DNA from: Persephonella marina EX-H1
GTDB lineage: Bacteria > Aquificota > Aquificia > Aquificales > Hydrogenothermaceae
Assembly (NCBI RefSeq): GCF_000021565.1
Contig: NC_012440.1
Coordinates: forward strand, 248,001-312,000
Direction: 5' to 3'
Length of the DNA stretch: 64,000 bases
In this document: piece after piece, positions 61,228-63,515 of the stretch
Layout: every line of letters begins with the position of its first letter
Position numbering within the stretch: position 1 is the first letter of the stretch
Position numbers and translations under genes: made by a program
Notes under the pieces: generated by a model
What the model saw: only the letters and a program-made list of their open reading frames with translations
What the model was told of the DNA's origin: nothing
Databases searched by the model: none

Positions 61228-61584
61228 ATGGAAAAACTTTCCGTATTAACAGCTTCATTATTTCTGATAGGTGGTATAAGCTGGTTCTTTTTTGGTAAAA
61301 AGAAGGAAGACAGTTCTCCAGCTGAGGAGTCTATAAGGAAGAAGGAGAATATAGAGCTTGATATATCTGGTATGCACTGTGCAGGGTGTGCAGCTGGAAT
61401 TGAGGGAACTTTAAGAAACCTTCCGGGAATAATATCAGTATCAGTCAATTTTGCAACATCAAAAGGTTATATTGAGTACGACGCTACAAAAATAACAAAA
61501 GAGGATATTATAGACAGGATAAGACAGTTAGGTTACGATGCATCATTAAATCTTGAAGAGTTTGAAAAAAAAAGGAAAGGATAG
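61228..61584 (+). CDS. Zero-frame product of copA: membrane-anchored HMA metal-binding protein
   Basis: Read without frameshift, the copA start yields 118 residues: one N-terminal membrane helix (about 5-22), a linker, and a heavy-metal-associated domain with GMHCAGC (Cys51 and Cys54), ending KKRKG at TAG 61582-61584. GGGGAG precedes the ATG. This would be an anchored copper chaperone, comparable in composition to the short CopA(Z) product of E. coli copA. It may instead be only the first part of the ATPase if the frame is corrected. Confidence 0.65.
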
Positions 61585-63515
61585 AGAAGGATCTTAGAAA
61601 AAAGTTCTTCCTTTCAGCATTTCTTACAGCTTTAATATTTCTATTAACATTCTTTCCTTTTTTTAAGCTTAAACTTTCTGAAAGCCTTCCTTTGCTCACT
61701 CTGGATAATCTTTTAATACTTATTCTCGCATCTGTGGTTCAGTTTTACGCTGGATGGGAATTCTACAGTTCGGCATTTTCAGGAATAAAAAACAGAATAG
61801 CTGATATGAATTTGCTTATAGCTATAGGAACATCAGCGGCTTACTTTTACTCTGTCCTTGTTATGTTTCTCCCTTTCCTGTTTCCTGAAGATATGAGATA
61901 CCTATATTTTGATGGTGCAGCTGCAATAATAACCTTTGTTCTTTTAGGAAGGTATCTTGAGATAAGATCAAGATCAAAGGCCTCTGAGTTTATGAAAAAA
62001 CTGCTCTCATTAAAGCCGCAGATGGCAAGAATTATAGTTGATAGAAAGGAGTTAGAGATACCTGCTGAGAATGTTGTTGTTGGTGATATTGTTGTTGTCC
62101 GTCCTGGAGAGAAGATACCTGTTGATGGTGTTGTTGTTGAAGGTGAGTGTGAGGTTGATCAATCAATGATAACAGGAGAACCTCTTCCTGTTCTCAAGAA
62201 AGAGGGAGATACTGTTATAGGTGGAACCGTAAACAGGACAGGTGTGATAAAGGTAAAAGCTTTAAAAACAGGAAGGGATACAGTCTTATTCCAGATTATA
62301 AAGCTGCTTTCGGAAGCCCAGGGGAAAAAACCGCCGATAGGGAGACTTGCTGACAGGATAACAGCGTATTTTGTTCCACTTGTGCTTATCTTTTCAGTTG
62401 TGGTTTTTGATCTCTGGTATCTGATAGGAAATGATATTCAGCTTGGTTTTATAGCTTCAGTTTCTGTTCTTATTATTGCCTGCCCGTGTGCACTTGGTCT
62501 TGCAACACCTATAGCTGTTGTTGTCTCTGTTGGAAGAGGGGCCAAAGAAGGTATGCTTATAAAAAATCCAGAGATCGTTGAGACTGTCGGGAGGGTAAAT
62601 ATAGCTGTATTTGACAAAACAGGAACACTTACAGAGGGAAAGCCTTCTGTTACAGACTCAAAAGTTTATAAACAGGATTTTTTAGGCTATATCTCAGCTT
62701 TACTTAAAAACAGTAATCATCCTTTATCCAGAGCTGTTTATGAGTATATAGGAGATACTGAAGGGGAGGTTAAGGATTTTCAGCAGGTTGCAGGTAAAGG
62801 TGTGAAAGGTGTTGTAAATGGAAAAACTGTTGTTGTTGGAAATCTCAGGTTTTTAAAGGAGTCGGGTGTTAATACTGAAAATATCTCAAAAGGTGATCAG
62901 ACCGTTGTTTACGGTGCTGTTGATGGTGAGGTTGTAGCTGAGTTTTATATATCTGACAGATTGAGGGATGAGGCGTTTTATGTTGTTAAAAAGCTTAAAG
63001 AAAGAGGTATAAAAACGGTTCTTCTGACAGGGGACAGTAAAAAAGTTGCTGAGAAAATAGGTGAAGAGCTTGGTATAGATACCGTTTATGGGGAGCTTAT
63101 GCCTGAAGAGAAATACCGGATTGTTGAGAAACTCCAAAATGAGGGCAATGTTGTTATGTTTGTTGGAGATGGGATTAATGATGCTCCATCAATGGGAAAG
63201 GCCGATGTTGGGATTGCTGTTTCTGGTGCAACTGATATAGCAAGGGAGGCTGGAGATATACTACTTCTGAAAAATGATCTCAGGCTTGTGATAAAAGGTA
63301 TAAAACTTTCAGAGGAAACATTAAAGATTATAAAACAGAATCTTTTCTGGGCTTACATATACAATATGCTTGGTATTCCTGTTGCAGGTGGAATACTTTA
63401 TCCGTTTACAGGATTTCTTCTCAAACCTGTTTTTGCAGGTATAGCTATGTCCTTCTCATCTGTATCTGTTGTATCAAATGCCTTAAGACTTCAGTTTAAA
63501 AAACTTGGAGAATAG
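61228..63515 (+). CDS. copA: Copper-exporting P1B-type ATPase, joined by -1 frameshift
   Basis: A -1 shift at 61566-61572 joins the N-terminal anchor and HMA domain to a frame that runs unbroken to 63515, giving about 762 residues. The second part has eight expected helices, [10 protein letters not shown] (metal-transport Cys pair), [10 protein letters not shown] (phosphorylated Asp), [34 protein letters not shown] and the C-terminal YNMLGIPV and [12 protein letters not shown] of Cu(I) pumps. The sequence between 61572 and the first possible internal start, about 61692, is coding in this frame. Copper export would protect the many copper and heme enzymes encoded here. Confidence 0.85.
61565..61574 (+). 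other. Slippery site (A9G) for -1 frameshifting in copA
   Basis: Nine A then G. In the starting frame the codons are GAA AAA AAA AGG, so A-AAA-AAA is in register for a -1 slip that leads to AAG and the ATPase frame; zero-frame TAG follows 8 bases after the run. GAAGAG lies upstream, and a 7-base stem (GAAAGGA 61575-61581 with TCCTTTC 61609-61615) is possible downstream. Confidence 0.6.

Follow-up and report, generated by a model that had tools for sequence, protein, structure and literature searches.

The window analysed here, i.e. the whole stretch of 64,000 nucleotides from Persephonella marina EX-H1, contains a copA gene that is split between two reading frames. The zero frame opens with an ATG at 61228 (GGGGAG lies about 6 nt upstream) and encodes a hydrophobic anchor, a charged linker and an HMA copper-binding domain, whereas the copper-translocating ATPase follows in the -1 frame. 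The features are as follows.

61228 to 61584, + strand: zero-frame open reading frame; short product of 118 aa made up of a hydrophobic anchor and an HMA copper-binding domain (sequence, PF00403)
61237 to 61293, + strand: predicted N-terminal membrane helix, residues 4-22 (Kyte-Doolittle)
61357 to 61539, + strand: HMA domain with GMHCAGC (PF00403, 66.9 bits)
61565 to 61573, + strand: A9 slippage run, GAA AAA AAA AGG (sequence)
61572 to 63515, + strand: -1 frame, AAG codon onwards; encodes the P1B-1 Cu+-ATPase portion of the complete pump (TIGR01511)
61582 to 61584, + strand: zero-frame stop TAG, end of the short product (sequence)

The run at the junction consists of exactly nine A (zero-frame reading GAA AAA AAA AGG AAA GGA TAG), and 8 bases separate its end from the TAG. 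The -1 frame is open from 16 nt before the zero-frame stop, i.e. from within the run, and ends with a TAG at 63515. It scores 603.5 bits against the copper-translocating P-type ATPase model TIGR01511 (cut-off 397), and the CPC, DKTGT, TGE, GDGxNDxP, YN and MxxSS motifs were located in it, as is characteristic of a P1B-1 pump. The sequence-only reading is thus borne out in its description of the locus: a start frame ending at 118 residues just after an anchored HMA, an ATPase that continues in the -1 frame from the A-run, and a run A-AAA-AAA standing in the zero-frame register for -1 slippage. The HMA lies upstream of the pump but in the other frame, and a fusion of the two requires a slip. The conserved linker KKKLEEE..L.K. 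likewise becomes contiguous with the pump only if the A9 run is crossed. An internal start of the ATPase part was ruled out. The first ATG, GTG or TTG of the -1 frame does not occur before codon 40 in this window, and none was found in the first 12-80 codons in 30 of 30 genomes; since the frame lacks a start codon for at least 12 codons, the pump cannot be made by internal initiation.

The hydrophobicity of the N terminus is similar among relatives, with a maximum 19-residue Kyte-Doolittle mean of 1.93 here and values of 1.7-2.3 across a sample of 7 other genomes. The hydrophobic 19-residue segment is followed by G and KKK, and the position of KKK after the predicted helix suggests that the HMA is cytoplasmic. 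A profile search of the whole genome with PF00403 gave a single match, C2:309357-309539, which is the HMA of copA itself; no separate CopZ-type chaperone was therefore found by this search.

The junction could be read in 31 genomes of the same family, the Hydrogenothermaceae, this genome included. A comparison with relatives had been suggested as a check on the original reading, and its outcome is in agreement with it: the gene is interrupted in 31 of 31, with the ATPase in another frame than the HMA in all, and exactly nine A accompany the split in 30 of 31, spanning 8 genera. GAA AAA AAA AG is invariant across these 30 copies, the zero-frame stop lies 1-3 codons past the run, and the spacing between GMHCAGC and the run is constant among relatives, with most flanking codons variable. 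The two lysine codons within the run never depart from AAA in these 30 genomes, whereas the lysine codons elsewhere in the same genes comprise 1501 AAA and 423 AAG (AAG 22%). Copies with ten A, or copies otherwise in frame ("cured"), number 0 of 30. Conservation of the shift site together with the two-frame architecture, a criterion of programmed frameshifting, is thus seen in 30 genomes and 8 genera. That 30 other genomes, one of them with A8, show the A-run together with a zero-frame stop and a continuation in -1 is far more than chance would give.

The pattern search for the copA A-run gave no match among 95 other Aquificota genomes. The alignable copA homologues of other Aquificota families, about 27-42% identical, have the HMA in frame, and the A-run at their linker is no longer than seven. 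Taken together, the two observations indicate that the split is probably a derived trait of the Hydrogenothermaceae. Two incomplete assemblies deserve separate mention. The fragmentary MAG G003 has a run of eight A and is the sole exception among the 31, and in another incomplete MAG (L028, G029:C37) the junction is still A9 but the ATPase part contains many stops.

Pattern searches were extended to the complete genome containing the window (G000), i.e. 1.98 Mb in two contigs, the larger one of 1,930,284 bases. A/T runs reach a length of nine at 21 sites and never exceed it, whereas an order-5 Markov simulation of the same size gave 143 runs of at least nine and 34 of at least ten. In other words, this genome is strongly depleted in A/T runs of that length and avoids them. 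Five of the 21 are located at clear coding-frame switches, every one into -1. One is that of copA; the other four are listed below.

G000:C2:1443295-1444745, + strand: cca-type tRNA nucleotidyltransferase, A9 split (L111, L124)
G000:C2:208560, + strand: ylxR, A9 split (L101, L218)
G000:C2:1473387-1475509, - strand: family-B DNA polymerase (polB), A9 split (L114, L149)
G000:C2:395772, - strand: usher-like gene, A9 frame switch close to the N terminus (L104)

The A9 splits occupy all three codon phases and the next base is G, C or T, so that the feature they have in common is apparently the length of the run and not the codon register. The cca break separates the polymerase head/RNA-binding part from the HD domain (21 genomes read); four relatives have ten A and an in-frame gene, and in one genus (G010-G012) the run is lost and the gene is in frame. 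The first A of the cca run is the synonymous third base of a leucine codon, and all A9 copies use TTA or CTA there. ylxR is broken within its domain (RTCILCKKK / RPKEELIRF) in 20 of the 21 family genomes read, the remaining one, G024, being A10 and in frame, and its A9 pattern was matched in 0 of 95 other Aquificota genomes. For polB, the A9 split was found in 3 genomes, and G019 has ten A and is in frame. A scan of the window for frame switches at A7 or A8 gave three weak A7 matches, which were judged spurious from their translations.

We regard the copA split as real, conserved and broader than a single gene, and as a variant of known programmed slippage. The explanation that we favour, and on balance think probable, is that copA is a conserved programmed-slippage gene in which RNA polymerase slips and two products result. 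A single mRNA would be transcribed from the whole gene, and at the A9 run the polymerase would slip on part of the transcripts and add one A (A10). From the unslipped mRNA the cell would make the membrane-anchored 118-aa HMA protein, which may serve as a copper donor like CopZ, and from the slipped mRNA a fused anchor-HMA-Cu+-ATPase of about 760 aa. Both products would accumulate, with the short one presumably acting in copper handling.

A serious alternative, though on the whole a doubtful one, is a tolerated ancient frameshift, which would be compatible with either slippage mechanism. Here a chance change in the A-run would have been fixed, the short product would be a by-product, and A9 would be retained only since its loss is a loss of the pump. 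Precedents exist in the ant and aphid endosymbionts, where homopolymer frameshifts are rescued by polymerase slippage (PMC5009743). Within the family, the short frame of ylxR terminates inside the domain, and early zero-frame stops are at least as common as by chance, with 32% of positions having one within two codons. The idea that the early zero-frame stop is selected is unsupported, such stops being common in that frame. The short product of ylxR is probably useless because the slip site falls inside the domain; the conservation of A9 alone thus speaks for a need for the long product, not for the short one. On the other hand, the copA break lies exactly between the HMA and the ATPase, and no second HMA was found in the genome. 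Moreover, copA was never found cured or with A10 in 30 genomes, in contrast to cca with its in-frame genus without the run and its four A10 copies. This absence is the main hint that the short form of copA may plausibly have a function.

Programmed -1 ribosomal frameshifting (PRF) on A AAA AAA would yield about the same two products, again with the pump as the shifted one, and seems to us unlikely but not far-fetched. PRF needs a heptamer of seven A or A_AAA_AAG. Every A9 run contains A AAA AAA in register, and in the A9 copies of copA that register is the zero frame; A_AAA_AAA and A-runs are documented PRF sites, and frameshifting amounted to 40% in E. coli with an A9 cassette of Mg-chelatase (PMC3711429). 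In some genomes the hairpins just after the run also exceed the average stability somewhat (51-nt codon-shuffle mean z -0.56 versus -0.13 in controls). Against this, seven A would suffice, yet copA, cca, ylxR and polB all have nine, the runs occupy three phases, and the first A of the cca run is kept although it is synonymous. RNAalifold gave no consensus fold in 30 sequences, i.e. no downstream RNA structure common to the copA relatives, and the codon-shuffle z of the hairpins past the run is weak, only -0.4 in this genome. A downstream stem-loop or pseudoknot was rejected on these grounds. The hairpins of single sequences can be explained by purine-rich coding (K/E/R) followed by pyrimidine-rich coding (membrane helix). 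No Shine-Dalgarno-like stimulator was found upstream of the run.

We infer that slippage of RNA polymerase, giving an A10 mRNA from an A9 run, fits better than ribosomal frameshifting, because A9 recurs in several genes and in three phases, A9 and A10 alternate, PRF stimulators are missing, the next base may be G, C or T, and the synonymous first A of the cca run is always A. A run of at least nine A, independent of codon phase, was found in copA, cca, ylxR, polB and the usher-like genes. Bacterial transcription slips efficiently on runs of nine A or T, Thermus thermophilus dnaX being an example (PMC5009743), and insertions by RNA polymerase occur mainly in A/T runs and are mainly of single bases (PMC5574713). 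A point against the polymerase is that in E. coli it is less prone to slip on runs of A than on runs of T (PMC6260861). The sequence-only reading had considered that slippage in transcription would fit equally well as slippage on the ribosome. The transcriptional fit holds, but "equally" probably does not, given the three phases, the A9/A10 copies and the lack of PRF stimulators.

Phase variation of the A-run at the DNA level is very improbable. Homopolymers in genes can phase-vary, and both A9 and A10 occur in cca, ylxR and polB of the relatives. Nevertheless, copA would be "off" everywhere, as it has A9 in all 30 species, and the same A9 split is seen in housekeeping genes; for copA the explanation was rejected. 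A sequencing or assembly error or a pseudogene, which the sequence-only reading had kept as its alternative to slippage (a base error or mutation in the homopolymer), can be dismissed for the family. Homopolymers are error-prone and one MAG has A8, yet the same nine A and the same interruption recur in 30 genomes that were assembled separately and belong to 8 genera, nearly all of them with the conserved ATPase intact.

Meydan and co-workers reportedly described the programmed -1 frameshift of E. coli copA in 2017. That gene encodes CopA and CopA(Z) (PMC9548414; PMC5009743), so it was known before that a copper donor and a pump can come from one copA, in that case by ribosomal frameshifting. 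The likeness is that of a single Cu+-ATPase gene in which a frame switch after the N-terminal HMA would give a small HMA protein and a pump. The zero frame encodes the pump in E. coli, whereas here it encodes the short form and the pump is in -1, which agrees with the reversal noted in the sequence-only reading. Moreover, the HMA is soluble there and predicted to be membrane-anchored here, and the site here is an A9 run in which no conserved stimulator was found. If slippage at A9 yields both products, E. coli and this distant family would have converged on one output, here in reverse order and probably at the step of transcription.

Wernegreen is said to have described, in 2010, frameshifted genes of endosymbionts that are rescued at poly(A) tracts. 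In Buchnera and Blochmannia homopolymer frameshifts are likewise retained and rescued by polymerase slippage at such tracts (PMC5009743), but these are reduced, very AT-rich endosymbionts, whereas the present organisms are thermophiles with genomes of 1-2.5 Mb, and runs of at least nine are depleted in this one. The dnaX of Thermus thermophilus shares with copA the thermophilic host, the nine-base A run and the two products; it differs in gene and phylum, and its long product is in the zero frame (PMC5009743, PMC3711429). In two-ORF dnaX genes the long form is in -1, as in copA here (PMC5009743, PMC3711429). The Mg-chelatase genes with -1 frameshifting (runs of A7-A11) also comprise two ORFs, the second being reached by a -1 shift at a run of A, but they encode a different enzyme and are scattered over genera, whereas here a single family is concerned (PMC3711429). 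We found no paper on such frameshifts in the Hydrogenothermaceae.

With several genes split at A9, including those of a housekeeping tRNA enzyme and ylxR, the family is a natural test bed for the cellular use of slippage. Annotation pipelines are likely to label such genes as broken or as two genes. Going further, and only tentatively, the Hydrogenothermaceae may routinely decode a number of chromosomal genes, copA, cca, ylxR and others, by RNA-polymerase slippage at A9, the fraction of slipped copA transcripts may set the ratio of anchored copper donor to pump, and the arrangement may have arisen independently as a mirror image of that in E. coli.

A second complete genome of the family, G018, has A9 switches in copA, cca and ylxR as well as in an usher-like and a transposase-like gene. 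The usher-like switch (L182) has a codon phase different from that in G000. The transposase-like gene (L192, G018:C2:25224) was identified by eye as a MerR/IS607-like transposase subunit, and its A9 switch is into the -1 frame.
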